Part shown: in pieces, positions 7,867 through 26,918 of the stretch
How the letters are laid out: each line of letters opens with the position of its first letter
Numbering within the stretch: position 1 is the first letter of the stretch
Source: a virus
Length of the DNA stretch: 27,389 nucleotides
Reading direction: 5' to 3' (one strand)
IMG/VR virus record: IMGVR_UViG_3300025009_002472
Span: 1-27,389 of that record
Notes under the pieces: generated by a model
The model's database searches: none
Told to the model about the DNA's origin: nothing
The model's input: only the letters and a program-made list of their open reading frames with translations
Translations under genes and position numbers: made by a program

Positions 7867-7867
7867 G

Positions 7868-10321: not shown

Positions 10322-10330
10322 GTGATCCCC

Positions 10331-11092
10331 CTACGCCGCGCGCCGCTTGGCGCTCTTCCGGAACCGGTCCAGCGCCTTGCCGCGCACCGGCTTAATCACC
10401 AGCGGGGCCCCGGTGGGGTTCGAGACCACCTCCGGATTCTGCCGGCCGCGGTCGCTGCCCTTCAAGTTCTCGCCCACCAGAATGCGCCGCGCGCTGGTAT
10501 TTTTGCCAGATTCGGCTGCATCGTCGAAATACTTTTTCCCCAGCCATGCGCCGGCAACCTTACCCGCCAGCGGCGCGATGAATGTGGACAGCAGCCCCTT
10601 GTCCTCGCCCGCCTTGCGGGTTTGGAAGTCGGCCATGTCGCGCGAGGTGACCGCGCCGGCGTAATTCCCGCGCATGCTGGCGACATTCGACAACTGGTTC
10701 ATCCGCGTCCCGGCGTACTCGCGCTGCAGGGCGAGGTCCTGATTCGCCAGCTCGACCTTTGCCCCCAGAATGCGGTCGAGCGCGCTACCGGCAACGTTTT
10801 CCTCAAGCTCCGACGCCGCCGCGATGGCAGTCCCGGACTTACCAAGCCGGGACCCGAACCTATTCAGGAAATTCGACCGCGCCGCCTTGGCCTGATTGCC
10901 GACCTGCGTGCGCGTGACATCGAGCACCCCGCGCTTGATGCCTTCCGTGGTGTACGCCTCGCGCGGGGGCTGGAACCCGGCATAATCGCCGATGGCCTGA
11001 TTCTGGGCATCCATCGCCGCGTTCGACGCGTCCCAGTTCGCTTCTTCTTTTTTTCCGAACAGCGCTTTTTTAATGCTTTTCAGGAATCCCAT
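10331..11092 (-). CDS. probable small internal virion/ejection protein, gp14-like position (253 aa)
   Basis: The start at 11092 overlaps the preceding stop (TGATG) and has GAGGTG upstream; a 22-residue longer reading runs into the previous gene. The protein opens with a basic amphipathic segment (MGFLKSIKKALFGKKEE), then a long alanine/glutamine-rich helical region. Near residues 185-205 a weakly hydrophobic glycine-containing helix (LLSTFIAPLAGKVAGAWLG) could insert in a membrane. The C-terminus is strongly basic (KPVRGKALDRFRKSAKRR). That is reminiscent of T7 gp14, the first ejection protein that reaches the outer membrane, and the gene is followed by gp15- and gp16-position genes. No sequence identity to gp14 is claimed; the call rests on gene order and composition. 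Confidence 0.65.
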   Translation of the reverse strand: MGFLKSIKKALFGKKEEANWDASNAAMDAQNQAIGDYAGFQPPREAYTTEGIKRGVLDVTRTQVGNQAKAARSNFLNRFGSRLGKSGTAIAAASELEENVAGSALDRILGAKVELANQDLALQREYAGTRMNQLSNVASMRGNYAGAVTSRDMADFQTRKAGEDKGLLSTFIAPLAGKVAGAWLGKKYFDDAAESGKNTSARRILVGENLKGSDRGRQNPEVVSNPTGAPLVIKPVRGKALDRFRKSAKRRAA

Positions 11093-11379
11093 CAGATCAC
11101 CTCGATGTAGTATTTGCCGGCCGCGCTGAACCGCAGCAGAATCTGCGTATCGTTCCACTTCTCTTCATCCGCCAGTATGTGGTAGCAGGCGCCCGGCGCG
11201 CCGCTGGGCAGGTGCTTGCCCGGAATGTACCCGAACGGCCGCCGCTTCAGCTTGTGGTTGACCGCGATCGCCCGGCGCGTCCCTGACGGGTTGTCCACCT
11301 CACTGGTCGCAACGCTGACCTCAATCAGTGCGTCCCGGTGGTTCATGTCGGCCAGCGTGTTCCCAGTGATGTCAGCCAT
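11092..11379 (-). CDS. small beta-rich virion-associated protein, unknown function (95 aa)
   Basis: The ATG at 11379 overlaps the stop of the upstream fibre-like gene (TGATG). The sequence is predominantly beta-strand in character. It has a central NHKLKRRPFGYIPGK motif, a short turn-rich stretch, then WNDTQILLRFSAAGKYYIEVI. Small phage tail/capsid-associated proteins often share the pattern 'H-L-x-R-x-P-x-G-[FY]-I' followed by 'W...T..L.L..SA....' near the C-terminus, which this fits, but I cannot name the family. There is no signal peptide, unlike the gene just upstream. It sits between a fibre-like protein and the first ejection protein, so a minor structural role is the most economical guess. 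Confidence 0.6.
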   Translation of the reverse strand: MADITGNTLADMNHRDALIEVSVATSEVDNPSGTRRAIAVNHKLKRRPFGYIPGKHLPSGAPGACYHILADEEKWNDTQILLRFSAAGKYYIEVI

Positions 11380-12206
11380 CAGTAGCCCCACGCTGTCCAC
11401 ATATAGAGGTAACCAGCGCTATTTGCCGTGGTCAGTCCGCCAGTATTATCCCTCACCCGAAACCCATGGCTGTCACTGTTGTTAACCAATGTTGCGTACG
11501 TTCCGGGATCCCACGTCAAACCAGATCCATTCAAGGCGACCATGCTGAAATATTCCTCATAACTCGGGGCCTCGTTACTGGTGCTGACGATCACGCTGTC
11601 AGGAAGACAATCCATAGCCAAAAAAAACGAACCATCGCTGCCGCCAGGAGAGGTTGCATGGTAATTGCTGTAGACCACAACCCTCGTCACCGTGAAATTG
11701 ATCTTTGCCCCTCCTTGTACGTGGCCGGCACCCTGCTGCGTGCAGTAAATGGTACGCGTGTCAGTTCCATCACCAAGATACCGTCCGTTGACCATCTTCA
11801 CGAAGTTTTGTGAGGTGTCAGACTGTGAAACAAGTCGTGACGTGGGAAAAGTGAATGCCGGAGCAAACATCGTATCACTACTGATCGCGCCGCTGTCCAT
11901 GGCGTACGATCCGACACTGTGATACCCCATATTGTCCTGCGTGATGGTGTGCTGCGCGATGTCAGTGCCAAGCACTGTGCTGTCCTCAATCTGGCTGCTG
12001 GCGACACTGTTGATGCCGAGCTGATGGGCGTCAAAATTGTCGTTAAATTTCGACGACGACACCGACTGTCCGGGACTGAACACCCACGGGGTAGTCACCG
12101 GGTCAGCCAAGGCGTGGTAGACAGAAATCGTACCTAATGCCACCACCACACCCAACAACCGCGCAATACCGATGCTGATGGCGCGCACTGTCCGCTCGTT
12201 CTTCAT
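11379..12206 (-). CDS. fibre-like protein with N-terminal Sec signal peptide (275 aa)
   Basis: The start at 12206 overlaps the nozzle gene's stop (TGATG) and is preceded by GAGGGGG. Residues 1-34 form a clear Sec signal: basic MKNERTVR, a hydrophobic core (LLGVVVALGTISVYHALA) and a likely cut before DPVTT. The mature part begins with SSSKFNDNFDAHQ and a short ladder of SSQIEDSTVLGTDIAQHTIT type, a repeat style common in phage tail fibres. A beta-rich C-terminal domain ends in MWTAWGY. Placement immediately after the nozzle gene is normal for a fibre, but a cleavable signal peptide is not: it would send the protein to the periplasm or cell surface. Whether it is a virion fibre, a surface decoy or an infected-cell envelope protein cannot be decided from sequence. 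Confidence 0.7.
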   Translation of the reverse strand: MKNERTVRAISIGIARLLGVVVALGTISVYHALADPVTTPWVFSPGQSVSSSKFNDNFDAHQLGINSVASSQIEDSTVLGTDIAQHTITQDNMGYHSVGSYAMDSGAISSDTMFAPAFTFPTSRLVSQSDTSQNFVKMVNGRYLGDGTDTRTIYCTQQGAGHVQGGAKINFTVTRVVVYSNYHATSPGGSDGSFFLAMDCLPDSVIVSTSNEAPSYEEYFSMVALNGSGLTWDPGTYATLVNNSDSHGFRVRDNTGGLTTANSAGYLYMWTAWGY

Positions 12207-14128
12207 CACTGATACCCCCTCGCAATTCCGTATAGTGTCACCGCGGCAATACCCAGATAGTTATTCGTCGCGTCCTTCACCTGCAGCTGTGTCCAAAACC
12301 CCTGATTCTCCTCACCGAAGGTCAGGGAATAGCTGTAAAACGAGAAATCACCAAACACCGACCCGTCATCAAAAAGCGACTCGTCGAATATGGCGATGTT
12401 GGTCGAGATGCCGTCAATGACCCCGCTCTGAGTGTTCCCGTTGTAGGTATCGCAGGTCACCGTTATGCGGTCCTGAAGCTTCGCCACCATGCTGAGCTGG
12501 GTATACTCGAATATCTCGTTGATGGACTTTGCCCCAATCTTCCCCATCAGCCACCAATATTCGATGAACTGCGTGCCGGGAGCGGCCACGATCGCATCCG
12601 TGTCAACCGACTGGTAAAAGAGCTGCACCAGGCGCGGCGCCGCGGAGTCCGTCAGGGTAAACAACTCACCCTCGCCCGAAGCGCCGTAGTTGATATCGCG
12701 GGAGATCATCGGGCCCGCGCTGTAGCCGTAATCCGGGCCAACAAACACATCCTTTTCGATGTCATACAGCACTGCGTTATTGTTGTACGAGTCATCCGCA
12801 TCGGCCGCGTTGTACGAGACCACGATGTAATTGTCGTGCACGCATATGCTGATGTCCTCAATCGACGATTTCCTGATTTCCTTTTTGATGATATTCAGAA
12901 TATCGCTGCCGCGCTTCGTCTTCTTCAACGATTGCGGCGGATTGATGCCGTCGCAGACGCACAGGCCCTCGCGCGGGTCCCAGAACGTCAGATATGATCC
13001 GCGGGATATAGCCACTTCCTTGATCGAGCCCGGCGAGCATGTCCCGAACGCGCCGTAAAACGCCACCTGATCGTAGCCCTGCGCGCTGTTCCGGCGGTAG
13101 TACGCTACCCCCGATTCCTTGAAGGTCACCACGCTGTTGTTGACTGTGTTGCAGCCCATCGTTCGGCCGTGCCCGTCCTTGAAGAAACCGGCATTGCTCG
13201 GGTCGAATTCCTGCGGATGTTCCGCAACCGACCAGAACAACCGGTCATCCTCAGCCGCAGTGCCGAGAATAATCAGTACCCCGTCATGCTTGCACGCCCA
13301 TTTCGGCCCGACAATGCGATCGATGACGTTCGGGTCCATGTGCGTTTGATCGGTGGCGGCGACGCTGTCAACATAGGTCCCGGTGAACGGTGCAGTGATG
13401 CGGTCGTGGAAGAAGTAAGCGCCGCCATCATCGGAAGTTCGGTATACATTGACCGCGTTCGTTTGCGGATCGGTCGGCACGGCATAAGCAAGGTTGATGT
13501 TCTCGGCCGTCACATCGATCTGGTTGCTGGCGGCCGACATGGCCCCGTAATATTCGCGCAGTTCGGCGTTGACCTCGCGCACCTCGCGCGTCTTATACCT
13601 GTATTTCCCGGTGACGGAACCCGTTCCTGCCGATGACGCCACCGGGGCCGCCGGCTTTGCCAGCATGAAGGTGTGCATGTCATTCAGGCTGTCGCTGCGC
13701 AGCGTCATTCCACAATCGATACCGTTGAAGGCGAATACCTTGTCATCCCAATCGACAAAGCACACTCGTTTCGTGGCTGCTGACCAGGTCATACCGCTCG
13801 GGAACGTCATCGCGTTGGCCGTGAGTGTCGGCACCGTGCCGCTGAAACGGATCATAGTGCTTTTGCAAGCCGCATACAGGCGGTCGGCGGCATCACCGGT
13901 CGATGGATACGCCTGGTGAATGCCTGCGCAGCGGCCGGGGAACACATAGTCACTGGCAAAGCGCGAGCCGGGCCGGCGCGACAGGACACCGTCACGCAGC
14001 CTGATATTCGACAGGCGCATCGCCGCGGTCAGGTCAACGCTGATCGGATCATCAATGGTTACCAGCCCCAACTTGTCACACTCGATGTTCCATTCAATGC
14101 CACCGTGGTTTGTACGCTTGAAGGTCAT
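12206..14128 (-). CDS. tail nozzle / tail tubular protein B-like (640 aa)
   Basis: This is a large soluble beta-rich protein with no signal peptide. It contains successive four-strand-like segments such as MRLSNIRLRDGVLSRRPG near residues 37-54, then VFAFNGI, LFWSVAEHPQEFD, LTFWDPREGLCVCDG and AVLYDIEKDVF. Ordered motifs of this kind (start with 'NI...DGVLSRRPG', later 'LFWS....P.DF') are typical of podoviral nozzle proteins such as T7 gp12 and P22 gp10. Those proteins form the distal tube below the adaptor ring and gate DNA exit. Its order after the adaptor gene fits, except that four small genes have been inserted between them. The ATG at 14128 overlaps the preceding stop (TAATG) with AGGAATAGG upstream. 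Confidence 0.75.
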   Translation of the reverse strand: MTFKRTNHGGIEWNIECDKLGLVTIDDPISVDLTAAMRLSNIRLRDGVLSRRPGSRFASDYVFPGRCAGIHQAYPSTGDAADRLYAACKSTMIRFSGTVPTLTANAMTFPSGMTWSAATKRVCFVDWDDKVFAFNGIDCGMTLRSDSLNDMHTFMLAKPAAPVASSAGTGSVTGKYRYKTREVREVNAELREYYGAMSAASNQIDVTAENINLAYAVPTDPQTNAVNVYRTSDDGGAYFFHDRITAPFTGTYVDSVAATDQTHMDPNVIDRIVGPKWACKHDGVLIILGTAAEDDRLFWSVAEHPQEFDPSNAGFFKDGHGRTMGCNTVNNSVVTFKESGVAYYRRNSAQGYDQVAFYGAFGTCSPGSIKEVAISRGSYLTFWDPREGLCVCDGINPPQSLKKTKRGSDILNIIKKEIRKSSIEDISICVHDNYIVVSYNAADADDSYNNNAVLYDIEKDVFVGPDYGYSAGPMISRDINYGASGEGELFTLTDSAAPRLVQLFYQSVDTDAIVAAPGTQFIEYWWLMGKIGAKSINEIFEYTQLSMVAKLQDRITVTCDTYNGNTQSGVIDGISTNIAIFDESLFDDGSVFGDFSFYSYSLTFGEENQGFWTQLQVKDATNNYLGIAAVTLYGIARGYQ

Positions 14129-15291
14129 TACCTATTCCTCCACAGCAGCCGGCGGAAGGTGTTAACCATTGATTCGCGCCGATGTTCGCCAATCACAGAA
14201 ACAGGGACATAATATCCCCACGATACGCCAATGATCCCACCGGTGCTACTTGCGGTCGTCAGTGATATCGGATCACTGAAATATGCCAGAGTACTGTATG
14301 TATCTGTCAGCATATTCGTCCACGTCGGCTGAATCGAGATGTTTCCCACACCAATCGACGGGGCATCACCCATCCCACAATTATAGGTGTCGGTGTACGA
14401 AATGTAACAAGTCGAAGCGATTGCCCCGTCATTACCTGTATTGAATACTTCGGTGCAACCGTCGATAATGGTATTGGTGATAATTGTCGTGTCGCTCCCT
14501 CCGTTCAGGGCAGCGTTTGAGCCGTTGACGATATACTTGGCATTGCGCACGGTGCAGTGGTCGATGTAAGCATAGACATTCACCGGTAGGTCGCGCGGGG
14601 TGGGGCAATAAACGGCGTTCACATTCACGAATGAACTGTTATATATGCGCACCACACCACGCTTGTTCGTGTCGTCAACTCCGCCGCCGTATTCACGGTG
14701 CCCGATGACGCCGTTGAGTGTGTCGCCAGTATAGGTGATGTTGAAGAACAAGCAGTTTTGGACATCCAAAAAGACTTTGCTGTCCGTGCCAACGGTAGGC
14801 TGGCACTGTATCACGGCGTTGTGCGAAGACGACGGTACGACCATATTGATATTTCTGAATGCGAACCCGTCTATGCTAATGATACCGTCCTTTTTGCCAG
14901 ACGTCAGGAAGTTTGAGCCGTAGTTGAATATGGGAGTTGACCACGACCGGTATCCTGAATACGAACCAAAGGTAGGGCTATCAGATCCAACGGAAACACC
15001 ACGAAATTTGACATATTGGTCAGACAGCGTGACATAGTCCTGCATGTAGTCTGATGTGTCTCCTGTGCAGGAATATCCATACACCCACATCGTATCCGGG
15101 AAATTGGTATCAGTGGAAACCAACTTCGTCTTGCCATACGTAACGGTGATTACCGGGCTGTCAGGAGTGTAGCCATAGGCAGGCAGATTGCGGGCGCGAG
15201 TGTCACCGGCGCTAACGTACAGATTAATACCAGCTGTGGCAAAACACGGAGCGGCACACAGCACAAGTATCATCGCGATAATGTAACGCAT
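14128..15291 (-). CDS. secreted right-handed beta-helix protein, tailspike-like (387 aa)
   Basis: Residues 1-18 (MRYIIAMILVLCAAPCFA) are a compact Sec signal peptide. The mature chain starts with LYVSAGDTRARN, close to the DUF1565-like opening often seen before beta-helices. It then shows regularly spaced short strands of the parallel beta-helix type: ISIDGFAFRNINMV, VFLDVQNCLFFNIT, VRIYNSSFVNVNAV, YIDHCTVRNAKYIVNGS, TIITNTIIDGCTEVF. Such folds are used by phage tailspikes and polysaccharide lyases, and also by secreted bacterial enzymes. I see no obvious catalytic residue set. The C-terminus is basic (EHRRESMVNTFRRLLWRNR). The ATG overlaps the upstream stop (TGATG) with GGAGG in front. The beta-helix is well supported; tailspike versus secreted surface-modifying protein is open because of the signal peptide. 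Confidence 0.75.
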   Translation of the reverse strand: MRYIIAMILVLCAAPCFATAGINLYVSAGDTRARNLPAYGYTPDSPVITVTYGKTKLVSTDTNFPDTMWVYGYSCTGDTSDYMQDYVTLSDQYVKFRGVSVGSDSPTFGSYSGYRSWSTPIFNYGSNFLTSGKKDGIISIDGFAFRNINMVVPSSSHNAVIQCQPTVGTDSKVFLDVQNCLFFNITYTGDTLNGVIGHREYGGGVDDTNKRGVVRIYNSSFVNVNAVYCPTPRDLPVNVYAYIDHCTVRNAKYIVNGSNAALNGGSDTTIITNTIIDGCTEVFNTGNDGAIASTCYISYTDTYNCGMGDAPSIGVGNISIQPTWTNMLTDTYSTLAYFSDPISLTTASSTGGIIGVSWGYYVPVSVIGEHRRESMVNTFRRLLWRNR

Positions 15292-15803
15292 CAGTACGCC
15301 TCCACGGTTTCAACAACGTCGATAACTCTTTCAGCCAACTGTCCGTTAGGGGCAATGAATGTCTCCCATACATACCGGCGGCGAACCCGCATATTGGCGA
15401 TTTCGCTTTCTTCAATATCCTCATACGGCAATTCACCGTGGCCGGGAATAACTTCACGCGTATCACTTCGATTTGTGCGATCGGGCTTTTCACGCATAGC
15501 CTGGCGAACCCATTCAGCCGTCGGCGTATCGTTGATATTCTTTGCCACCACGCCAGTATCAGCGCCAAATACCCCCAGATTAACCACACGATGCCACGAG
15601 CCGTTGCTTGAAGTTACCGGCTCAGTTTCAGTCAAACCGCTGTTGCTGTCGCTGCCCAGCGCATCGTCAACATGGATATTCTGACGGTTGCCATTGTCAG
15701 CGAACGATGGCGTTGGTTCGACAGCGAGACAGAATATGGCAAAGGCGATGGCAATCCAGATCAAGATGCGCTCGAACGCTTTGCTGTGTCCGACCTTTTC
15801 CAT
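15291..15803 (-). CDS. secreted protein of unknown function with signal peptide (170 aa)
   Basis: The ATG at 15803 immediately follows a TAA stop. The N-terminus has a longer basic region (MEKVGHSKAFERI), a strongly hydrophobic core (LIWIAIAFAIFCLAV) and a probable cut after PTPSFA near residue 36. The mature protein opens with IHVDDALGSDSNSGLTETEP. That resembles the 'YVS..GSDSN.GL.PE.P' start of beta-helix secreted proteins, but it then departs into a polar, charged sequence with no helix ladder. The C-terminal part is rich in Arg/Glu (MRVRRRYVWETFIAP). It may be a short relative, or a truncated copy, of the opening of the neighbouring beta-helix protein. Its position within the tail-gene interval implies co-expression with virion genes. 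Confidence 0.65.
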   Translation of the reverse strand: MEKVGHSKAFERILIWIAIAFAIFCLAVEPTPSFADNGNRQNIHVDDALGSDSNSGLTETEPVTSSNGSWHRVVNLGVFGADTGVVAKNINDTPTAEWVRQAMREKPDRTNRSDTREVIPGHGELPYEDIEESEIANMRVRRRYVWETFIAPNGQLAERVIDVVETVEAY

Positions 15804-15878
15804 TTAGCACCTTGCCCGGTATTCGTTGCGCGGGACATCGCCACAGAACAACAGCAGCGCATCGATGATAAAGCGCAT
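15804..15878 (-). CDS. 24-residue hydrophobic peptide ORF, coupled on both sides
   Basis: The ATG overlaps the upstream stop (TGATG), and the TAA stop abuts the ATG of the next gene, leaving no untranslated base between three consecutive genes. The peptide reads MRFIIDALLLFCGDVPRNEY and four more residues. It starts with the same Met-Arg-x-Ile-Ile pattern as the signal-peptide genes on either side. Only a weak GGGA lies upstream, so coupling would be needed. It could be a real micro-membrane peptide, a coupling device, or the remnant of a signal peptide whose mature domain was lost. Confidence 0.4.
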   Translation of the reverse strand: MRFIIDALLLFCGDVPRNEYRARC

Positions 15879-16348
15879 CAGCGCATCCCGCGCACAGCAA
15901 TGTAGTCGCCGCTACAGGCAAGTCCGCTGCGCGTCTGGATCCACAGCGTGGGAACACGGAACGGGTACAGGTACAGCGTTTTGGCTGGCTGGTAATCTCC
16001 TTTGCCGGCCGCTGCTTCAGCATAGGTCAGGGAAACCAGAATATCGGTATCAGCAACCGTCACCTGGTACCAGTTGTACGTCGATCCGAAGGCAAAAGTA
16101 TCGAACGTCGCGTCAAGGGTAGTGTCGGTGAGAATTTCCGTACTCACACACGACGCGGCAATCGTATCAAACACAATTGCGCCATCAATCTTGCGCACAC
16201 TGGTATCCAAAGCCCAATCAGTTCCCGTCCAAACAAGGGGCGGAACGTTCCCATTACCGTCAGTCGGTAATGTGCGGACCGGGTCTAGGGCCTGAGCGGC
16301 CGTCACCAGCACCAGCGACATCATAATCACCACGATAATTGTGCGCAT
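15878..16348 (-). CDS. secreted beta-rich virion-module protein with signal peptide (156 aa)
   Basis: The start at 16348 is fixed by GAGGAGGAT just upstream; a 23-residue longer reading overlaps the adaptor gene and destroys the signal. Residues 1-20 (MRTIIVVIMMSLVLVTAAQA) are a textbook Sec signal with AQA before the cut. The mature protein is beta-rich, contains two cysteines suited to an oxidising compartment, and ends with a YPFRVPTLWIQTRSG...DYIAVRG pattern. I cannot assign a family. It follows the adaptor gene by 10 bases, so it is expressed with tail-completion genes. The first 12 coding bases (ATGCGCACAATT) are identical to those of the signal-peptide gene after the capsid gene. Confidence 0.65.
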   Translation of the reverse strand: MRTIIVVIMMSLVLVTAAQALDPVRTLPTDGNGNVPPLVWTGTDWALDTSVRKIDGAIVFDTIAASCVSTEILTDTTLDATFDTFAFGSTYNWYQVTVADTDILVSLTYAEAAAGKGDYQPAKTLYLYPFRVPTLWIQTRSGLACSGDYIAVRGMR

Positions 16349-16358
16349 TGCATCCTCC

Positions 16359-17054
16359 TCAGGTGAACATAAACGGTTGTTCGAACGGATTACCCAAACC
16401 ATACGGTTCAAGGGCATGCGGCGCGCGCGAATGGCGCTTCATCTTCGGCAGCATATTTATCGCCTCGGCAAGCAAACCGGCGGTACTATTCGTATTCACA
16501 TCACCACGGTCGGCCAGCGCCATCAGCGCGGCCTTGAGAATGACCACGTCCAAGGTCAGTTCATGCAGATCGCTTGCCCCGGTAACTGCCGGGGGCCCGA
16601 CAACCGGGACCGCCATGGGCGTGTAGCGCCTGAGATAGGTTAGGGTAAACGCGTCCCCGACAGCCGGCACCGGCAATATCCCGATCTGCGTCGGGCTGAA
16701 TTCGTAGCAGGCGCGGCCACTGGGAGTGTGCATCAGGTAATTGTCGCGCATATCGTAGCTTATGAATGTGTACGGCAAATATGCCACGCCGGTATCAGCG
16801 GCCAGCTTCAATTCGCCAAATTTGATGTAATCGGTTGGCAGGGTCTGCAGCTCCTGGGCAACCGTCACGGTGATGGTTGCCTGCTTGCGGAATCGCGTAC
16901 GGTCGATATCCAGTTCGAGATAGAACGCCTGCTTCTCCGCCTTGGCGATGTAGCGTTTCAGTTTGTCGTCGCCCCAATTGCCTGTGACGACACCGGCAGG
17001 AAGACCGTTACGGATTGCATCCCGCACCTCAACGACGGCTTCGGTTAGGTTCAT
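16359..17054 (-). CDS. head-tail adaptor (gp11/gp4-like tail tubular protein A position), 231 aa
   Basis: The N-terminal region is helical, with the adaptor-type pattern WGDDKLKRYIAKAEKQAFY (residues 27-45). A beta insertion follows (ATITVTVAQELQTLPTDYIKFGEL), and then another helical bundle near 165-210 (TLDVVILKAALMALADRGD). This helix-beta-helix layout, the ~230-residue length, and the location between head genes and the nozzle are those of podoviral adaptors such as P22 gp4 and T7 gp11, which form a 12-mer ring under the portal. The start at 17054 has AAAAGGATGACCG upstream and lies only 13 bases beyond the end of the terminator T-run, so its mRNA must come from read-through or from a promoter I cannot see. 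Confidence 0.72.
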   Translation of the reverse strand: MNLTEAVVEVRDAIRNGLPAGVVTGNWGDDKLKRYIAKAEKQAFYLELDIDRTRFRKQATITVTVAQELQTLPTDYIKFGELKLAADTGVAYLPYTFISYDMRDNYLMHTPSGRACYEFSPTQIGILPVPAVGDAFTLTYLRRYTPMAVPVVGPPAVTGASDLHELTLDVVILKAALMALADRGDVNTNSTAGLLAEAINMLPKMKRHSRAPHALEPYGLGNPFEQPFMFT

Positions 17055-17067
17055 CGGTCATCCTTTT

Positions 17068-17106
17068 AAAAAGGGGAGCGCGGCGCTCATAACATCCGCG
17101 CCCCCC
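17068..17106 (-). terminator. intrinsic terminator after the head genes
   Basis: On the minus strand an 11-bp stem (GGGGGGCGCGG pairing with CCGCGCTCCCC, one G-T wobble) with a 12-base loop is followed directly by TTTTT. It lies between the 82-residue head gene and the adaptor gene. In T7 the terminator T-phi occupies the equivalent place, after the capsid gene and before gene 11, and works by partial read-through. That would give high capsid and lower tail protein expression here too. Confidence 0.8.
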
Positions 17107-17125
17107 AATTTGATCATCTTCCCTG

Positions 17126-17374
17126 TCACCACGTGATGGCGAACAGGTAATTCGTTGAATTCGCCGTCAAACTGGTAAACGCCACTGTGCCAGCCGTCGT
17201 ATCCCAGTCCGCCGCGCCCTGCACAGCGCCCGAATTGATGGCAAACTGCACGTCACCACCAATTACCCAGTCGTAGCTGTCGGCCCCGCCGCTCAGCACG
17301 ACCTTGGCGATGCGGATGCGGATCCCCACGCCCGGGATGTAGATGTCACGCTCCTTCGAAATTGCTGCCGCCAT
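17126..17374 (-). CDS. small beta-rich head-module protein (82 aa)
   Basis: This short beta-type sequence (RDIYIPGVGIRIRIAKVVLSG, then DWVIGGDVQFAINSGAVQG and TSLTANSTNYLFAITW) has no signal peptide and no cysteines. It lies 10 bases after the capsid-accessory gene, with GGGGGTGACCC ahead of its ATG, and is the last gene before the terminator. It is probably a minor head or decoration protein, by position only. I do not recognise the family. Confidence 0.6.
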   Translation of the reverse strand: MAAAISKERDIYIPGVGIRIRIAKVVLSGGADSYDWVIGGDVQFAINSGAVQGAADWDTTAGTVAFTSLTANSTNYLFAITW

Positions 17375-17384
17375 GGGTCACCCC

Positions 17385-17948
17385 CTACCGGCAATCAACG
17401 TAGACGGGCTGCAGCGCAGTCGTCTCCGAGGTAGTCACCGCTTCACACACCCAGCCAACCGTCTGCATGGATGTCAGATCCGCAGCGGTCGTAACAACCC
17501 CACCGATGTAGAACGTGCTTCCGGCAAATCCCGCCTTGTCCGTGATGGAAATGCGACCACGCGCACTGATGCCAGACGCCGTGTTTGTGTCGCTGCCATC
17601 AACGTAGGCCGTGGTATAGCCACGGGTGAGAACAGTCAGCCACTGGCCAGTATCGGCCGCCTGGAGCGAAACGCCAAGAATGGTCCCGGTGTTCTCCGTA
17701 GCCGGTGCCTTGACCACCATCACGCCGGTGTCGTACCGACCGCTCAAACTCGTCGCCACCTGGCTGCCGAGGGCAATCTGCACCCAATCGCCAACCGCGA
17801 TGCTGTCGCCCCCAGCATTGACCGCAAATACCACCTCATTGCCGCCAGCCCTCGGCTCCGGAAACGTCGTCGACTGGAACGCCGCCGCCGGCGCCACCAT
17901 GGCCGCCAGCAGCACTGCCACCATCAGAACCTTGTGAATTGTGCGCAT
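17385..17948 (-). CDS. capsid-adjacent beta-rich protein with Sec signal peptide (187 aa)
   Basis: The start at 17948 has an ideal AAAGGAGG site; the longer reading into the capsid gene is alanine/tryptophan nonsense. Residues 1-23 (MRTIHKVLMVAVLLAAMVAPAAA) are a near-perfect signal peptide with AAA before the cut. The mature part is glycine/threonine-rich beta sequence (VFAVNAGGDSIAVGDWVQIALG, TILGVSLQAADTGQWLTVLTRG). This looks like the small beta-sandwich proteins, often annotated DUF2190 or head decoration, encoded next to many phage capsid genes. Those normally lack any signal sequence. Position suggests capsid decoration; the signal peptide argues for export. Both readings should be kept open. 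Confidence 0.65.
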   Translation of the reverse strand: MRTIHKVLMVAVLLAAMVAPAAAFQSTTFPEPRAGGNEVVFAVNAGGDSIAVGDWVQIALGSQVATSLSGRYDTGVMVVKAPATENTGTILGVSLQAADTGQWLTVLTRGYTTAYVDGSDTNTASGISARGRISITDKAGFAGSTFYIGGVVTTAADLTSMQTVGWVCEAVTTSETTALQPVYVDCR

Positions 17949-17962
17949 TGTCAGTTCCTCCT

Positions 17963-19144
17963 TTACACCTCGTACCCGAAGATGCTGAGATTCAGGTGCG
18001 GATTTTCGCTGATGACCTGGCCAACACACTGCCACTGCTGGTAGTGGATGCCAATGCCACCGAATGCCTGCCACTGCCGCGGCGACAGATGCGGCTGCCA
18101 CCCACGGACCATGACCGGCTTCGTGTACTTCGTGTTCGACGCCTGCAGGTAGCCGGGGCGCGCGAACTTCTGGTCCAGCACGATGCGCAGACCGCGGGTG
18201 ACCCGGAAGTGGTCAAATCCGTACTTGTCCCCGAACTCTTTGTCCAGGTGCGAATCCGTACGGTTGATGATCTTCCGGTCCTCCGCTTCCTTCTGGAACC
18301 GCATGTACTCTTCCAGCGAACACCACATATCCGTGCAGTATTCGTTGCCCGTGTACGTGCTCAGGTGGGCGTAAAGAATGTGCATCAGGGTGAGGTCCTT
18401 AATGCTCGTCACTTTGGCGAGGTTCTTGCCAAAGGTGTTCGTGCCGGTGCAGTCAAACATATTGGCGGCGAACAACGGGTTATCCGTGCGCGACAGACCG
18501 GCGTAATTGTTCGTGGCGCCCATGATGATGTTGTCAGTCGTCGACGCACCCCAGCCCAGCCCGTACCAGCGCATCGGCGTGGACAGCGACGTCGTCGGCA
18601 TGTTCTTCATCGTCCCGTCATTCCCATCGTAATACTGGAGGGAATTGCCCGCGAAACGCCGGGCGAGGCCCTCAGTGACACCAATCGAATGCTGCTTGAG
18701 ATACTTCGTTTTGTACTCAAGCATCGCGGCCGTGCTGCCCTGATTCGCGACCACCTGGTTGATGAAGTCGCTGTCCTTGATCTGCACGATCATTGCCGCA
18801 TAAGGTAGAGACAGCTGCTTGCTCCAGTCCTCAAGCGCCGGTTTCGGCGTAAACTGGCCGTTGGCGTTGACATCGTCCGCTTCCTGATTCTTGACCGTCG
18901 CGGTCCAGGTAATCGCCGTGCCGCCGGGCGGAATGGTATGCAGCAACCGATCCATGCTGCCCGTCTCGGGGTCCCTGTTGTTCATCGCCACCGAAGCCAG
19001 CATCGGCGACACCTTCTGGTTGTAGACCATGTCGATGCTTTCCGGCATGATGAAATTCTGGTTGATCATGGTCGTGATCGGATCCCACGTACCCTGACCA
19101 ATCGCCGTACGCATCAGGTCCAGTGCTGTAATCGTATCAGCCAT
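17963..19144 (-). CDS. major capsid protein, HK97-type fold inferred (393 aa)
   Basis: This soluble alpha/beta protein is 393 residues, within the range of podoviral major capsid proteins. It lies directly after a scaffold-like gene and two genes after the portal. It begins with a helical arm (MADTITALDLMRTAIGQGTW). There is an exposed-loop-like region near residues 60-110 (TIPPGGTAITWTATVKNQEA), a long central helix region with LARRFAGNSLQYYDGNDG, and a beta-rich C-terminus ending LNLSIFGYEV. Its start has GGAGAAGTAACA upstream. No signal peptide is present. The assignment rests on order, length and overall pattern; I cannot name a close family. A virion proteome would show it as the dominant band. 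Confidence 0.85.
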   Translation of the reverse strand: MADTITALDLMRTAIGQGTWDPITTMINQNFIMPESIDMVYNQKVSPMLASVAMNNRDPETGSMDRLLHTIPPGGTAITWTATVKNQEADDVNANGQFTPKPALEDWSKQLSLPYAAMIVQIKDSDFINQVVANQGSTAAMLEYKTKYLKQHSIGVTEGLARRFAGNSLQYYDGNDGTMKNMPTTSLSTPMRWYGLGWGASTTDNIIMGATNNYAGLSRTDNPLFAANMFDCTGTNTFGKNLAKVTSIKDLTLMHILYAHLSTYTGNEYCTDMWCSLEEYMRFQKEAEDRKIINRTDSHLDKEFGDKYGFDHFRVTRGLRIVLDQKFARPGYLQASNTKYTKPVMVRGWQPHLSPRQWQAFGGIGIHYQQWQCVGQVISENPHLNLSIFGYEV

Positions 19145-20305: not shown

Positions 20306-22273
20306 TTACACCGAAATCTTCTTCTGCAAACTCTGAATATATTCCAGCAATTCCGTCACCACAGGGTTCTCAATCACCTGTTGGGCCTGCTGCTCATCCT
20401 GCGCGCCCATAACCTGCGCCAGGCGCATGGCGATCTGCTCGATCGGGACGATATTGGCGTTGGCCCGCAGCTTCTCGATGATTTCAGGGGACATACTCAA
20501 CCCCATCTCTTCGCGCGGCTCTCCCGGCGCCGTCTCGCCGATTTTCTGCAAGTACGCGATGCTCTGCATCCGCTGCATCTTGTTATAGGGCAGGGTGTCG
20601 CTGTTCTTGGTGATGACATCGAATTTGCCGACGCTCATGTCCCGCAGCATCAGCTTGGCGACGCCACCTTCTTTGGACACCCGTTTGAGGAACAGTTCCT
20701 TGTATGCCTTCAGTTCCTGAGCTGTGAAATCGGTAATGCTGTCATCGGGCCGCACGGTTCCGTTCTCGCTCTGTTCCGCTTTTCCAATCAATTGGTTGAG
20801 TTCCTCAATACCGCCCGCCACTGGTATGTTGAACTCAAAGAACTTTGGCGACCCGTCCGGATTGGTATCCCCGGTGATCCGGATGATCTGCTTTGCGGTC
20901 ATCTTCCGCTGGATGAACCATTTCTGGAAATTACCCAGCCGGAACAGGGCGTCATAATCCAGCATCTTGGCCCGCTGCTTGATGCGATGTAGACCGGCCT
21001 TCTGCATCAGGTCGACTTTCACCGCTGGGTCAGGCCCTGAACCAACTGACCCATTCAGCCAATCGCTATTGTCGAGCACCCGCTGGTTGCGCTGACGGAA
21101 ATACTCGATCAGACGGAATTTGTTTTCGTGCTGGGGGATAATTTTGACTTGGCGTGACCGCGGCCCAGCCTCATACTGATCATGCGACAACCCGATTGCC
21201 TTGTTCCCGCCGCGGTATGCGTTCTGGTAATCGGCAGCGTCATACCCGGTCGACTCATCGAACTCAAAAGGCGGGGCCGTAACCATGGCGTCATTGCGCA
21301 TAAGTGAGTGCGTCAACTGCGTGACGATATCCGTGTTGCCCTTGCTGACATCAATGTCACTAGTGCCAAGGAACCGGTCCGGCTCCATATCATTGCGCAA
21401 GGCGATCAGCGCAAAGTCTTCATAATCGGTGCCGGTTCGGTGCTCAGCCAGATTTCCATTGATTTCGTACGCGATGTGGAATTTGTCACCAACAGGCAAC
21501 CAATATTCGTGAACCATGGCCTTGCCGGCCGAAAGCATTGCCTGAATATGGGCATGCTCATTCTTGCTGACCACGCCATCGCCACCCGCGATCTTGAAAT
21601 AATCCTGTCCCAGCGCGCTTTGCGGGCTGCTGGAATCTTTCTCCAATTCCGCGTTCAGCTTTCCTTTGAGCTGCGGCCATTCTGCTTCAATCGCCTTAAT
21701 GCTCATCAGGAAGCTGTGGATGATGTATCCCTGCTTGGCAACGTCCCACTGGGTCCAATCCTCAACCAGAATATCAGCCGGGCTGGGATTGATATATTGC
21801 AGTTCGTAAAGACCACTTTTCCCCTTGGTGATGCGAGGCATGATGTAGCCAACCGGGGTACGCAGGCAGTCCAACACCGCCATGGACCAGCGCAACGCCA
21901 GCTGCTTCTGATCCCAAAGAAATGCGTCAACGGTAGAGATGTCCTTGGATATAGGGGCATCGTACGGCTCAACCGGCTCAAACGAATACTTGGGGTCGTT
22001 TGCTGTCAGCAGTGCCTGATGCATTTTCACTGCTTCATAACCATCTCTGTCGCGGTAATCGCCCTCACGGATGCGATTGGGAAGGTCATATATCCCCCGA
22101 AAATACCTATTGCCGTACTCAATCCGTTCCCGCAAGCGCACGGATTCGCTGTTTGACGTCCTGATCGAGGCCGTGCGCATGGCCTGCAGGTTCTTCAGCA
22201 GGGCCTCGCGCGCCGCCGCATTGCGCTGCAGGTCATCGGCCTGGCCGGCAACAGGCTTGCCATATTCAGGCAT
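20306..22273 (-). CDS. portal protein (655 aa)
   Basis: The start at 22273 overlaps the terminase stop (TGATG) behind GGAGGATAATG; a 12-residue longer reading is rejected. The protein has podoviral portal features. These include an N-terminal helical region with residue charge alternation (NSESVRLRERIEYGNRYFRG), a central wing with WSMAVLDCLRTPVGYIMPRI and AMVHEYWLPVGDKFHIAYE, and a long stem/crown helical C-terminus (ENPVVTELLEYIQSLQKK). Twelve copies would form the vertex through which DNA is packaged and ejected. It lies between the terminase and scaffold genes, the classic order, and its length is usual for podoviral portals (500-750 residues). Confidence 0.88.
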   Translation of the reverse strand: MPEYGKPVAGQADDLQRNAAAREALLKNLQAMRTASIRTSNSESVRLRERIEYGNRYFRGIYDLPNRIREGDYRDRDGYEAVKMHQALLTANDPKYSFEPVEPYDAPISKDISTVDAFLWDQKQLALRWSMAVLDCLRTPVGYIMPRITKGKSGLYELQYINPSPADILVEDWTQWDVAKQGYIIHSFLMSIKAIEAEWPQLKGKLNAELEKDSSSPQSALGQDYFKIAGGDGVVSKNEHAHIQAMLSAGKAMVHEYWLPVGDKFHIAYEINGNLAEHRTGTDYEDFALIALRNDMEPDRFLGTSDIDVSKGNTDIVTQLTHSLMRNDAMVTAPPFEFDESTGYDAADYQNAYRGGNKAIGLSHDQYEAGPRSRQVKIIPQHENKFRLIEYFRQRNQRVLDNSDWLNGSVGSGPDPAVKVDLMQKAGLHRIKQRAKMLDYDALFRLGNFQKWFIQRKMTAKQIIRITGDTNPDGSPKFFEFNIPVAGGIEELNQLIGKAEQSENGTVRPDDSITDFTAQELKAYKELFLKRVSKEGGVAKLMLRDMSVGKFDVITKNSDTLPYNKMQRMQSIAYLQKIGETAPGEPREEMGLSMSPEIIEKLRANANIVPIEQIAMRLAQVMGAQDEQQAQQVIENPVVTELLEYIQSLQKKISV

Positions 22274-23781
22274 CACATTATCCTCCGCCGGCCCGGGCGC
22301 TGCGCCCACGGGCCAAAGGGCACGGTCATGGTGTTGTTTGACGCGTCATAGGTGCCCGTCTGCACCTGCGGCGCCGCCGGGACCTCGCCGTCATCGATGT
22401 GGTACTTCGGCCCGCCGTAGATATTGGCGACATGATAGGCATTCTCAATCGCGTCACCGCGGTCAGGTGACCGCCCAAGCCGCTTCTTCAGTTCATCCTT
22501 GGTTTCAGCCACGATCACGCCGTCTTTGACCCGGAACTTCTGTGAGGTAAGGTCGGTCCGGAGCTTGAGATCATCCGGTAGGGCGGGACGGTTGCGTTCC
22601 AGCATCATTTTCAGACGGAATTTGATCATCGTCTTGCGGTTTTTGAACTTATCAGGGACGCCCTGCGTCTCACCGGACTTGATACCCATCACGGGCAGTT
22701 TGGCTCTGCTCAGGATATCGGTCACGCCACCGCCAACCCCGTCATCATCGATCCCGATCATGCGGGGTTTCCGACTGGCAGCCTTGTATCTTGCCATTAT
22801 CCGTTCGCTGGTCACGTCCACACCTTCTTTTTTCCACACGTCTTCGATCCGTGACCGGTAATCGCAGACGCTCGTCAGCACGGTTTCATCATCACCATAC
22901 CGCGCAACATCAACACCCCAATACTCTTCAGCGCTATCAGCGGGTATGATGATCCGGGTCATGGCGTTTGCCACGTCTTGGGCCGAGTACATGCTGTTCG
23001 CCATGCCAATAACGCCCCAAATACCCTCCATATACGCCTTGAGCATGGCCGGATCGTGCGCAAACACTTTTTGCAGATGCTCGATGTACCCCGCCGCCAG
23101 CCATGGGTTATCGGTTGGAAGCGCCTGGACATACCCGTGGCCGGGCAGCGTCTGCAGAATGAAATCGTCGTTCAGCCAGCATTGTTCCGGGTTGCTGGTG
23201 TACAGCACAAAGCTGAACGGCAGGAAATTCGGGTTACGGCCAACCCGGCTCTCAACAAGCATGGCCGACAGTTTTTCCACTTCCGACACTTCATCCCCGA
23301 AGGCGAAGTCAATATTCATCGACTTCACTTTCTCCCTGTCCTTATTGTCGCCCAGGCCGCCGTAATCGATGCGCGACCCGTTTTTGTGGATGAAATATTG
23401 TTTGCTTTCGCGCTCATCCCAACCCGGCCGGTCAAGAATGCGAACGCCATCGGCATCGTCGCGCAGCGTGAAAAGGGTTGTTTTCTTGAAGGTGACGGAT
23501 TCTTTGCGGAACATGTACCCACGAATACCCGGGTGATTCTCGCAGGTGTCGACAGAATACTGGCATCCGAAATGGCTTTTCCCGCCACCCATGGCGCCGC
23601 CGTAGAGCATGATCGGCGTGCAGTTTTGCTCGCGCCTGATCCGCTCAATTTCATCGATGCACAACTGCTGCTTGTCAGACCACCAGAACCGCATGGCCGC
23701 GCGCAACTCAAGCTCCCTCATTACCTCGAGGAACTGCTCCCGGGCCTTAGGCTCGCGCGGAAGGCTTAAAGCCAATCCCAT
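22273..23781 (-). CDS. terL: terminase large subunit, ATPase and nuclease (502 aa)
   Basis: The start at 23781 (MGLALSLPRE) is within the small-subunit gene (35-base overlap) with AGGCGAAA upstream; readings further upstream are frame-shadow of that gene. A Walker A-type loop GGAMGGGKS is at residues 61-69, with a Walker B/catalytic Glu in IDFAFGDE at 157-164. The RNase-H-like nuclease follows with its acidic triad: WGVDVARYGDD (Asp291), IGIDDDGVGGG (Asp345-347) and RGDAIENA (Asp443). The enzyme translocates DNA into the procapsid through the portal and cuts the concatemer. All motifs are intact. The type, by overall look, is a P22-like headful terminase, but that sub-classification is a guess. 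Confidence 0.96.
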   Translation of the reverse strand: MGLALSLPREPKAREQFLEVMRELELRAAMRFWWSDKQQLCIDEIERIRREQNCTPIMLYGGAMGGGKSHFGCQYSVDTCENHPGIRGYMFRKESVTFKKTTLFTLRDDADGVRILDRPGWDERESKQYFIHKNGSRIDYGGLGDNKDREKVKSMNIDFAFGDEVSEVEKLSAMLVESRVGRNPNFLPFSFVLYTSNPEQCWLNDDFILQTLPGHGYVQALPTDNPWLAAGYIEHLQKVFAHDPAMLKAYMEGIWGVIGMANSMYSAQDVANAMTRIIIPADSAEEYWGVDVARYGDDETVLTSVCDYRSRIEDVWKKEGVDVTSERIMARYKAASRKPRMIGIDDDGVGGGVTDILSRAKLPVMGIKSGETQGVPDKFKNRKTMIKFRLKMMLERNRPALPDDLKLRTDLTSQKFRVKDGVIVAETKDELKKRLGRSPDRGDAIENAYHVANIYGGPKYHIDDGEVPAAPQVQTGTYDASNNTMTVPFGPWAQRPGRRRIM

Positions 23782-24289
23782 TTTCGCCTGCCAGTAATTT
23801 TTGTGCTTTTGCCAGCAATTCCTCATCGCTTTCGCCGGCCAGCGGGCGGCCGTTAAAATCGGTGGCCGCAATTTTCGACGCAACGTCGGCGCCACGGAGG
23901 GCGGTGATCCGGCGAAGTATGGCCAGATCCAACTCAATCGAATCGATGTGGCCAAGCTGGATCATCTTGGCCAACCTGACGCGATCCGCCATGAGGCACT
24001 CAATCTCATACTGGCGGGCTTCCTCGATTGTTTGAGCGGTGGCGGTCTGGATTTCGCCATACCACTCACGCACAATCCGTCCTACCTCAGCAAAGCTCAC
24101 CTGGTATTTGAGTTCCACTTCAATCTGACGATACGAGTGCCCCTGCACGTACAGGTCAATTATGGATTTGGAGATCCGCGCCTTGAATGCTTCAGCGCGG
24201 CTCATGGTGTGCCCTTCCTGCGGTTTCTTGCTTTTCTCCGGATTTTTCACCCGGATAATTGGTTTGCGGATTTCCTTCTTCTTCGTCAT
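23747..24289 (-). CDS. terS: terminase small subunit, probable (180 aa)
   Basis: A basic N-terminal tail (MTKKKEIRKPIIRVKNPEKSKK) precedes a helix-turn-helix near residues 38-75 (IIDLYVQGHSYRQIEVELKY, then FAEVGRIVREWYG). A long charged helical oligomerisation region follows (IEEARQYEIECLMADRVRLA, DLAILRRITALRGADVASK). This is the layout of small terminases, which recognise the packaging site and load the large subunit. The ATG at 24289 overlaps the previous stop (TGATG), and its 3' end overlaps the large subunit gene. Confidence 0.82.
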   Translation of the reverse strand: MTKKKEIRKPIIRVKNPEKSKKPQEGHTMSRAEAFKARISKSIIDLYVQGHSYRQIEVELKYQVSFAEVGRIVREWYGEIQTATAQTIEEARQYEIECLMADRVRLAKMIQLGHIDSIELDLAILRRITALRGADVASKIAATDFNGRPLAGESDEELLAKAQKLLAGENGIGFKPSARA

Positions 24290-24525
24290 CAGAGCACCCG
24301 CCTCTTGCCGATCATGTCGCGGGCCCGTTCGACTTGCTGCTGATGCTCACGCACATCAAGCTCGACTTCCGTCAGGTTGCCAAGTTTTCGTTTCTTCGGT
24401 ATTGACGGCAGCGGGATTTTCGCCACGCCGTTTTTCCCCATGTTGAAACCCATGATTATCCCAAAACAATAAGCACCACCGATCATCAAACCGCCGACGA
24501 CGAAACAGATGAAATATTCACTCAT
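24289..24525 (-). CDS. small single-span membrane protein (78 aa)
   Basis: Residues 1-28 are hydrophobic (FICFVVGGLMIGGAYCFGII), forming an uncleaved-looking N-terminal membrane segment. A basic stretch (MGKNGVAK, then KKRKLG) and a charged helical tail (VREHQQQVERARDMIGKRR) follow. The topology would place the tail in the cytoplasm by the positive-inside rule. Its ATG overlaps the lipoprotein stop (ATGA) and its stop overlaps the small terminase start (TGATG). The function is unknown; phage membrane proteins in this position are often exclusion factors or lysis accessories. Confidence 0.6.
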   Translation of the reverse strand: MSEYFICFVVGGLMIGGAYCFGIIMGFNMGKNGVAKIPLPSIPKKRKLGNLTEVELDVREHQQQVERARDMIGKRRVL

Positions 24526-24860
24526 CCGTCATAGCCCCAATCACGACCATCAACTTGGTACCGGTGATAATAGATCTTCACCACTTTCCCGTTTTCGTCA
24601 CGGTCAACAAACTGCTCGCCGCACACGGGGCAGTTGAATTCGCGCATGATCAGCGGAATGTCAATATCGAACACCAGGGGGATATATTCCGTTTTGCTGA
24701 ATGACGTGCGGCTGGTGCCCCAGAGCCGCAGAAACAGGTTGGTACGACATTCCGGACAATAGATGCAATCTCCTGCCGGCGGGAGCAACTGCGATTCATG
24801 CTCGCACCCGACAGCAAGCAGCGTAATTGCGAGGCAAATAATTACCGCGGCATAACGCAT
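24522..24860 (-). CDS. zinc-ribbon lipoprotein, first gene of the late operon (112 aa)
   Basis: The N-terminus MRYAAVIICLAITLLAVGCE is a signal peptide with a lipobox-like LAVGC, putting the lipidated cysteine at 19. Cys35/Cys38 (CPEC) and Cys77/Cys80 (CPVCGEQF) then form two CxxC knuckles of a rubredoxin-like zinc ribbon, about 38 residues apart; an extra cysteine is at 32. The C-terminus is polar with YYHRYQVDGRDWGY. The ATG follows a strong AAGGAGACCAC site. It is the first gene after the attachment region, a usual site for accessory genes. A lipid-anchored envelope protein expressed with the packaging genes could be a superinfection-exclusion factor, but that is inference. A zinc ribbon on a lipoprotein is unusual. 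Confidence 0.7.
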   Translation of the reverse strand: MRYAAVIICLAITLLAVGCEHESQLLPPAGDCIYCPECRTNLFLRLWGTSRTSFSKTEYIPLVFDIDIPLIMREFNCPVCGEQFVDRDENGKVVKIYYHRYQVDGRDWGYDG

Positions 24861-25529: not shown

Positions 25530-26918
25530 CTATTTTTTCTTCGGCTCGTCAAGCCAATGCAAAATAACGCTCACGCTGCCGGCTGGCGCGCCGAGTTGCT
25601 GCAGCTTCATCACCTTTTCCCGCACTTCATCCGGGTTTGCGCACGGCTGCTGCTGATCAGCCTCAGTTATTTTGTATGTCCTGCCGTACAGGTCGATCGC
25701 CTTGGTCCGGTGCACATACCGATCCAGCAGGATGCTTTTGCTGTGCCCCATGTGGTCCGCCACGGCCAGCAGGTAATCACCCATCGATACCCCCGCCGGC
25801 GGCTCCTGCTCGAAAAACAGGGTCCCCCTGGTGTGCCGCAGCGCCTTCTCCGTGAACCGCGGCGCCGGGACCATGGTTGCCGCCAGCCGGCATATCTTCC
25901 AGTGGATCTGCTTCAACTGGTCGTTGTTTATCCTGTCGGTCTCCGCGATGAGCATGTCGCTATCCACCGCGGCCACGTAATCGCGGATCAGCGCCACCGC
26001 GTCATCAGACAGCCACACCCGGCGCATGTTGGTGAACGCATCACTTTTCTGGTTCTTGGTCATGCCGGTATTGGGTGATATCAGCAGGTGCCCGGCATCC
26101 AGCCGCAGGTTTTCCCGGCGCGCGCGGAGTATTTCGGTGGGCCGCTGGCCAGTGTCCGCCGCGATATTGTGGGTGATCGCCCGGCGGTCAGCCGTTTTGT
26201 ACACCTCGAATGCGGCCAGCCGATACGCCGCCAGCTGGACCTTGCTCAGCACCCGCCGGCTGTCCACCTGGGTGGGTTTGCTGGGTGCCGGCATGATCCC
26301 CGCCTCAGCAATGATCTTCCGCACGTGTCGTGATGGCTCAACCATCCTCCTGCGCACGAAGTAATCGTAGACCACCGACAACGTGCAAAGGTCGCGCCGG
26401 ATAGTGTTGTTGCTTTTCCCGTCCTCATGCCGGTGCGCAATGAAGTCAGACAGGATTGCCATATCGATATCGGAAAGCCGGTAATCGCCAAGATATCTGA
26501 TCAGCGACGGCAGGCGCAATTCAGCTTCAATCCCCCTGTCACTGCTGGTGTATTTGATGATCCCGTCACCTGTTTTTCCTATGGCCGTGAGCGGGGATCC
26601 TTTGCCATCGGTGAGTGAATCGATCGCCTCTTTGAAATAGCTCTTCTGCCACCGGTCAGGAACGATACCCACCTTCTTCTGCAATGATTCAACCCGCAGC
26701 AGATCGCGGACCTTGACGGCTATGCGGATATCGTAGATCGGCCTACCTTCAAAATCGATGAACCGCCATTTCCTTTTGTGCACGACAACCATGCGCGGCC
26801 GGCCGGCATGATCAGACCGCAGCGGCATGCAATAAATGCTCTGCTCGCCTTTACCCGCCAGACGATGGCCAGCGGGATAAATATACTTCCAATATCGGTG
26901 TTTCTTCACGGATGGCAT
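25530..26918 (-). CDS. int: tyrosine recombinase, phage integrase (462 aa)
   Basis: It catalyses site-specific recombination between attP and a tRNA-Phe attB. The catalytic domain occupies about residues 220-415. It has Arg259 in TGQRPTEIL, a beta-hairpin lysine around TKNQK (288-291), KALRHTRG with Arg361, His392 in DHMGHSKS and nucleophile Tyr401 in DRYVHR. The usual His of the HxxR box is Lys358 here, a tolerated substitution in some family members. Residues about 80-210 look like an N-terminal core-binding helical domain (LSDFIAHRHEDGKSNNTIRRD). A 61-residue tail follows the tyrosine. The first ~75 residues are basic and may bind arm sites. The ATG has AGGA upstream and overlaps a small membrane ORF. 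The tRNA-Phe attachment core lies about 290 bp downstream of its stop. Confidence 0.93.
   Translation of the reverse strand: MPSVKKHRYWKYIYPAGHRLAGKGEQSIYCMPLRSDHAGRPRMVVVHKRKWRFIDFEGRPIYDIRIAVKVRDLLRVESLQKKVGIVPDRWQKSYFKEAIDSLTDGKGSPLTAIGKTGDGIIKYTSSDRGIEAELRLPSLIRYLGDYRLSDIDMAILSDFIAHRHEDGKSNNTIRRDLCTLSVVYDYFVRRRMVEPSRHVRKIIAEAGIMPAPSKPTQVDSRRVLSKVQLAAYRLAAFEVYKTADRRAITHNIAADTGQRPTEILRARRENLRLDAGHLLISPNTGMTKNQKSDAFTNMRRVWLSDDAVALIRDYVAAVDSDMLIAETDRINNDQLKQIHWKICRLAATMVPAPRFTEKALRHTRGTLFFEQEPPAGVSMGDYLLAVADHMGHSKSILLDRYVHRTKAIDLYGRTYKITEADQQQPCANPDEVREKVMKLQQLGAPAGSVSVILHWLDEPKKK

Follow-up and report, generated by a model that had tools for sequence, protein, structure and literature searches.

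Five genes in the virion module of an uncultured virus, known from its genes alone, encode proteins with predicted cleavable Sec signal peptides, and they alternate with genes for the capsid, adaptor and nozzle, whose products carry no such signal. The virus is that of IMG/VR record IMGVR_UViG_3300025009_002472, of which positions 1 to 27,389 (hereafter the window, 27,389 nucleotides) were analysed. Tailed phage particles are taught to be built wholly in the cytoplasm. I propose instead, and give the idea an even chance of being right, that the five proteins, here called SP1 to SP5, are exterior virion proteins that go through Sec and join the particles at or after lysis.

Signal peptides were scored by their n-, h- and c-regions using a hand-entered matrix of the von Heijne type, calibrated on proteins of E. 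coli K-12 whose location is known. In this calibration the scorer called 17 of 18 Sec proteins, 4 of 123 cytoplasmic proteins and 6 of 36 inner-membrane proteins. Signals of the Sec/signal peptidase I type, with a basic n-region, a hydrophobic core and small residues at -3 and -1, were called in all five proteins, also under a strict setting (matrix >=6, core >=2.5). By contrast, none was called in the 12 other virion-module genes. All five open reading frames (ORFs) named in an initial annotation are present at its coordinates, on the minus strand. Background calls under the strict setting were 0 of 5,615 for internal windows of other virion proteins, 0.5% for shuffled N-termini and 41 of 2,998 for genes in other phage and prophage loci, the last set being conservative in that it takes in chromosomal flanks. 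The binomial probability of at least five calls among 17 virion-module genes, computed post hoc, is 2.6e-6.

SP5 (17385..17948, minus strand like all the virion genes; 187 aa) adjoins the major capsid gene and has the signal MRTIHKVLMVAVLLAAMVAPAAA, followed by FQS at the predicted mature start. In SP4 (15878..16348, 156 aa) the signal MRTIIVVIMMSLVLVTAAQA precedes LDP, and the gene has the Shine-Dalgarno (SD) stretch gaggaggatgca. SP3 (15291..15803, 170 aa; MEKVGHSKAFERILIWIAIAFAIFCLAVEPTPSFA before DNG) is the weakest of the five: its c-region is long (EPTPSFA), one filter missed it, and its N-terminus is possibly an uncleaved signal anchor. Its stop overlaps the start of SP2 (TGATG). SP2 (14128..15291, 387 aa; MRYIIAMILVLCAAPCFA before TAG), a repetitive protein that looks like a beta-helix by eye only, has a stop that overlaps the nozzle start, and the start of SP1 (11379..12206, 275 aa; MKNERTVRAISIGIARLLGVVVALGTISVYHALA before DPV) overlaps the nozzle stop. 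For SP2 and SP5 the cleavage site can be placed only to within a few residues. Substrates of Bacteroidetes signal peptidase I usually expose a Q at +1 (PMC5837995), a rule from which all five signals depart (Q at +1 in 0 of the 5 predicted sites); the host is therefore probably not a member of the Bacteroidetes.

The Met codons named in the initial annotation are the right starts. An SD-like stretch stands just 5' of each, for example aaggaggaactgacaATG for SP5, gaggaggatgcaATG for SP4 and ggaggcgtactgATG for SP2, while in none of the five genes does another start with an SD site separate the signal from the mature part; the only SD-preceded internal start is codon 78 of SP1.

The virion genes run in the order terS, terL, portal, scaffold, capsid, SP5, 17126, SU10 adaptor, SP4, SP3, SP2, nozzle-like, SP1, 11092, 10331, 7868 and a protein of 2.1 thousand residues with a transglycosylase region. 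The signal genes are thus interleaved with unsignalled ones, and SP1, SP2 and SP3 overlap or abut their flanking genes, in agreement with the alternation and coupling claimed at the outset. The unsignalled neighbours are the candidate major capsid protein (17963..19144, 393 aa), assigned by its position after the scaffold and lacking a library match; the 82-aa product of 17126 (17126..17374), with a weak cement-protein match below the cut-off (PF23968, E 0.008); the adaptor (16359..17054), whose initial label is borne out by PF24175 at E 4.3e-16; and the nozzle-like or head-closure protein (12206..14128, 640 aa). For the last, the nozzle label draws on position and a weak head-closure match (phrog_8040, E 0.004) and on nothing further. 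A GC-rich hairpin followed by UUUUU at 17055-17125 (minus strand; -29.7 kcal/mol, z -3.5) lies 3' of capsid, SP5 and 17126. Many phages end a high-expression capsid unit with a terminator, and this hairpin is probably a terminator or attenuator that closes the capsid-SP5-17126 transcription unit in the middle of the virion operon. A promoter scan scored no better than shuffles. SP5 lies within the capsid transcription unit, between the major capsid gene and the hairpin, and would be expressed as a head decoration protein would need; its position makes it a candidate decoration or cement protein.

The folds of the mature parts, initially described as beta-rich or beta-helical, could not be substantiated: SP1-SP5 have no match in Pfam or the Protein Data Bank (PDB), no beta-helix, beta-barrel or other fold was confirmed, and SP5 has no profile match to decoration or cement proteins. 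PDB matches of SP5 to designed beta-trefoils were rejected as low-complexity chance. In SP1, residues 50-141 match an internal part of the profile of tail fiber family phrog_892 (E 3e-4 over 92 residues).

A second line of argument comes from what the genome lacks. Two further records hold an essentially identical virus over the region of SP1-SP5. One of them, G001 (38,168 b; G001 coordinate = 32497 - window coordinate), has matching ends, as a circularly closed genome would: because a 129-b stretch within a 60-bp tandem array is common to both at 99% identity, G001 is treated as a circularly closed genome of about 38 kb. In it none of the genes without a signal stands out as a fibre or spike, the remaining virion-module genes being packaging-, head-, neck- or ejection-like. 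By elimination, the receptor-binding protein is therefore probably among the signal-bearing proteins.

A precedent came from the background scan, which flagged Cellulophaga phage phi10:1. GenBank records mark gp091, gp092, gp093 and gp094 of this phage as structural proteins on the basis of experimental tandem mass spectrometry (MS/MS) proteomics, and each of the four starts with a signal peptide. Likewise MS/MS-marked and signal-bearing are gp085-gp087 of phi18:3 (gp085 weakly by matrix) and gp08 of phiSM, which makes eight MS/MS-recorded fibre- or spike-region proteins with signals in the three phages. Sec signals on consecutive late structural-region genes, as in the window, are found in phi10:1 (gp091-095), phi18:3 (gp085-087), phiSM (gp08-09), phi19:3, phi13:2, phi46:3, Nekkels_1 and Ingeline_1, and the proteins concerned are fibre and pectate-lyase-like proteins. 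The regions with Q-rule signals lie at 6848-13879 of locus L101, 5907-10438 of L106 and 4988-10680 of L205; MKHTISIVLFFILSLGLNA is one such signal segment. Among distinct flavophage signals, 13 of 14 follow the Q-rule, with a small residue and then Q where cleavage occurs. The first 42 residues of gp094, comprising the signal and about 20 mature residues, are 88-93% identical in phi13:2, phi18:3 and Nekkels_1, while the remainder of these proteins is unrelated; the same N-terminal module recurs in phi19:3, phi46:3 and Ingeline_1, across three phage families in all and on fibre or pectate-lyase bodies. Since signal and mature start are near-identical on unrelated bodies, the flavophage signal moves with the fibre N-terminal part as part of a swapped module. 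The N-terminal part of a fibre is where virion attachment is usually encoded.

The two cases differ in several respects. The Cellulophaga phages have Bacteroidota hosts and Q-rule sites, and their signals are confined to a distal fibre/spike cluster, whereas in the window the Q-rule is not followed and signals are found next to the capsid gene and in the interval from adaptor to nozzle as well. The claim of the initial annotation that export of virion proteins would be new behaviour stands in part: signals are already present on MS/MS-recorded Cellulophaga phage proteins, yet no paper reporting it was found, the open-licence literature yielding none that treats tailed-phage virion proteins with signals as a class. 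The Cellulophaga proteins and their shared module seem unreported. The window extends the occurrence of such signals to a non-Q-rule host and to a gene beside the capsid gene. The accompanying premise of the initial annotation, that tailed-phage structural proteins normally lack signals, is sound, for none of the 17 MS-verified proteins tested of the crAss-like phage phi14:2 has one and no strict call was made in seven other SU10-adaptor phage or prophage modules.

The favoured hypothesis is that SP1-SP5 are accessory exterior virion proteins, SP1 being a putative tail fibre, SP2-SP4 likely parts of spikes or fibres and SP5 likely a head decoration protein. They would be made late, together with capsid, adaptor and nozzle, exported by Sec and trimmed by signal peptidase I, and might then stay in the periplasm or at the cell envelope while heads with portal, adaptor and nozzle would be built in the cytoplasm. 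Lysis by holin and endolysin would mix the two compartments and let the exterior proteins attach. P22 tailspikes and decoration proteins of the lambda gpD type can attach to finished particles in vitro; they resemble SP1-SP5 in likely role and differ in being cytoplasmic proteins without a signal peptide. Five significant signals out of five, the interleaving of the genes, the place of SP5 in the capsid unit, the fibre-family match of SP1, the want of an unsignalled receptor-binding candidate and the Cellulophaga precedent all speak for the proposal. The broader claim, that tailed phages of different host lineages finish their virions in two compartments, with the DNA-filled particle cytoplasmic and fibres, spikes and even head decoration passing through Sec and host signal peptidase to join only at lysis, is put forward more tentatively, at somewhat less than an even chance.

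Several observations weigh against the proposal. AlphaFold2 single-sequence models of SP5 and SP2 (predicted local distance difference test, pLDDT, 37 and 29) were too poor for a structure search. Co-purified surface proteins could account for the MS detection in the Cellulophaga phages, whose proteins are in any case not homologous to SP1-SP5. No SP1-SP5 homologue that might show conserved signals was detected outside the same virus. Finally, since the seven other SU10-adaptor modules are similar in order and have no strict signals, the signals look like a lineage trait rather than a general one.

Relatives were sought in several ways. Scans of virus contigs with capsid, SP5, terminase, portal, SP1 and SP2 returned the same virus only; tblastn of INPHARED with capsid, SP1, SP2, SP4, SP5, portal, adaptor and nozzle gave no match; and tblastn of the window proteins against the fetched loci, phi10:1 (L016) included, gave none for SP1-SP5. 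Terminase alignments reach distant terminases only, the neighbours of which have no other virion gene in common with the window. SU10-adaptor loci in Marinimicrobia and Bacteroidota genomes show the same order, no strict signals and no homology. Two capsid matches in the phylum of G007 are sugar-nucleotide enzyme genes and were rejected as false. One SU10-adaptor contig from the Marinimicrobia genome search, L198, has about eight short, beta-type-looking genes in a row beside the adaptor, all without signals, and SP1-SP5 may have their signal-free counterparts among them. None of these searches yielded a divergent relative that could show signal conservation, and the explanations that follow are therefore weighed as probabilities.

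The strongest competitor to virion export, although an unlikely one, is that SP1-SP5 are secreted and are not virion parts: in late infection they would cover or alter the surface of the host, whether for superinfection exclusion, receptor masking, debris decoys or the degradation of capsules, and their place in the late operon would serve timing alone. The initial annotation had set late secreted surface proteins against an outer layer added outside the cytoplasm, and this is indeed the right pair. Host-surface proteins encoded near tail genes have a classic precedent in lambda Lom (PMC12309495), and Q-rule signal proteins of Porphyromonas phages, described in 2023, were read as modifiers of the P. 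gingivalis surface (PMC10367356). Lom-type proteins are likewise Sec-exported, but are usually products of single genes expressed by the lysogen and not interleaved with adaptor and nozzle genes; five such genes within a head-neck-tail block would be unusual. The window also encodes a sixth putatively exported protein, a lipoprotein candidate upstream of terS (24522..24860, minus strand; LLAVG before the predicted lipidated C by signal scoring, paired CxxC motifs), which suits secretion to the surface. Against this explanation stand the match of SP1 to a tail-fibre family, the record of flavophage signal-bearing proteins in virions and the fact that the closed genome would then be left with no obvious fibre or spike.

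A distinctly less probable alternative is that the five are virion proteins whose hydrophobic N-termini do not serve export, acting as membrane tethers in assembly or entry, being buried on incorporation or being removed by a phage protease. The long core of SP3 could be such an anchor, and what look like signals on capsid proteins of P. gingivalis phages were put down by the authors of one paper to prohead-protease cleavage (PMC10367356). Nevertheless, at least four of the five have the full n-h-c architecture with AXA-type sites, a feature called in none of the other virion proteins; the flavophage +1 residue obeys the rule of the host signal peptidase; and the head module contains no evident protease gene. 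It is very improbable that the genes were captured from secreted host proteins and that the signals are leftovers without a role in the phage, for though the signals resemble ordinary bacterial ones and SP1-SP5 have no phage homologues, in all five genes, which are independent and unrelated, the signal is intact and has an SD site of its own, and in flavophages it belongs to the best conserved regions (88-93%) of proteins whose bodies are swapped. Misprediction or wrong starts can be practically dismissed despite a matrix entered by hand, given the empirical calibration, the specificity of the strict set, the placement of the SD sites and the lack, close to the signal, of any downstream start with an SD site.

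Other phage proteins with export signals offer looser parallels. Signal-peptide endolysins, signal-arrest-release (SAR) endolysins and Rz1-type spanins are late and use Sec, as SP1-SP5 would, but differ in serving lysis; an endolysin or holin reading of SP1-SP5 was rejected, and the Amidase_3 endolysin of this phage has no signal and is encoded away from them. The pIII and pVIII proteins of filamentous phages are virion proteins with cleaved signal peptides, cleavage in SP1-SP5 being predicted; these unrelated single-stranded DNA phages differ in building the whole virion at the inner membrane during extrusion. Cysteine content was rejected as a sign of periplasmic folding, since the signal-less nozzle has 12 Cys.

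The remaining genes outline a tailed phage with an SU10-type neck, its terminase (large subunit 22273..23949, minus strand, phrog_2, E 7e-29), portal (20306..22273, minus strand, no signal, phrog_156, E 3.6e-10) and SU10 adaptor being found in the usual order by profile matches. Podovirus, the short-tailed label, is a deduction from the gene order together with the lack of tube, sheath and tape-measure matches. The phage is temperate, as it encodes a tyrosine integrase (25530..26918, minus strand, profile match), a CI-like repressor and the Amidase_3 endolysin. The 2.1-thousand-residue protein (1549-7869), probably an ejection protein, has an N-terminal transglycosylase region, in which residues 60-183 reach 59% identity to tape-measure/SLT proteins, and is otherwise unmatched over a very long stretch. 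The lipoprotein gene overlaps a gene for a protein with one transmembrane helix (24289-24525) just before terS; its two CxxC motifs are zinc-ribbon-like, and its product is possibly a spanin or an exclusion protein. The 60-bp tandem array (L010 1-240 plus the end of L011, that is, the G001 ends) encodes a repeat protein made of 20-aa units LPAGLTTIGGxCDLRGYSHA.

If fibres or decoration proteins do pass through Sec, the parts that set host range would fold in an oxidising compartment, be cut by the host signal peptidase and stay apart from the particle until the cell lyses. Producing such proteins for structural work or therapy would be affected, since the signal must be removed, and so would ideas on lysis timing and the annotation of receptor-binding proteins, which are readily mistaken for secreted proteins of the host or of an accessory kind. 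Should the window and the Cellulophaga phages represent one phenomenon, it would have arisen more than once and would not be limited to fibre tips, because the proteins are non-homologous, SP5 adjoins the capsid gene and SP2-SP4 lie between adaptor and nozzle.

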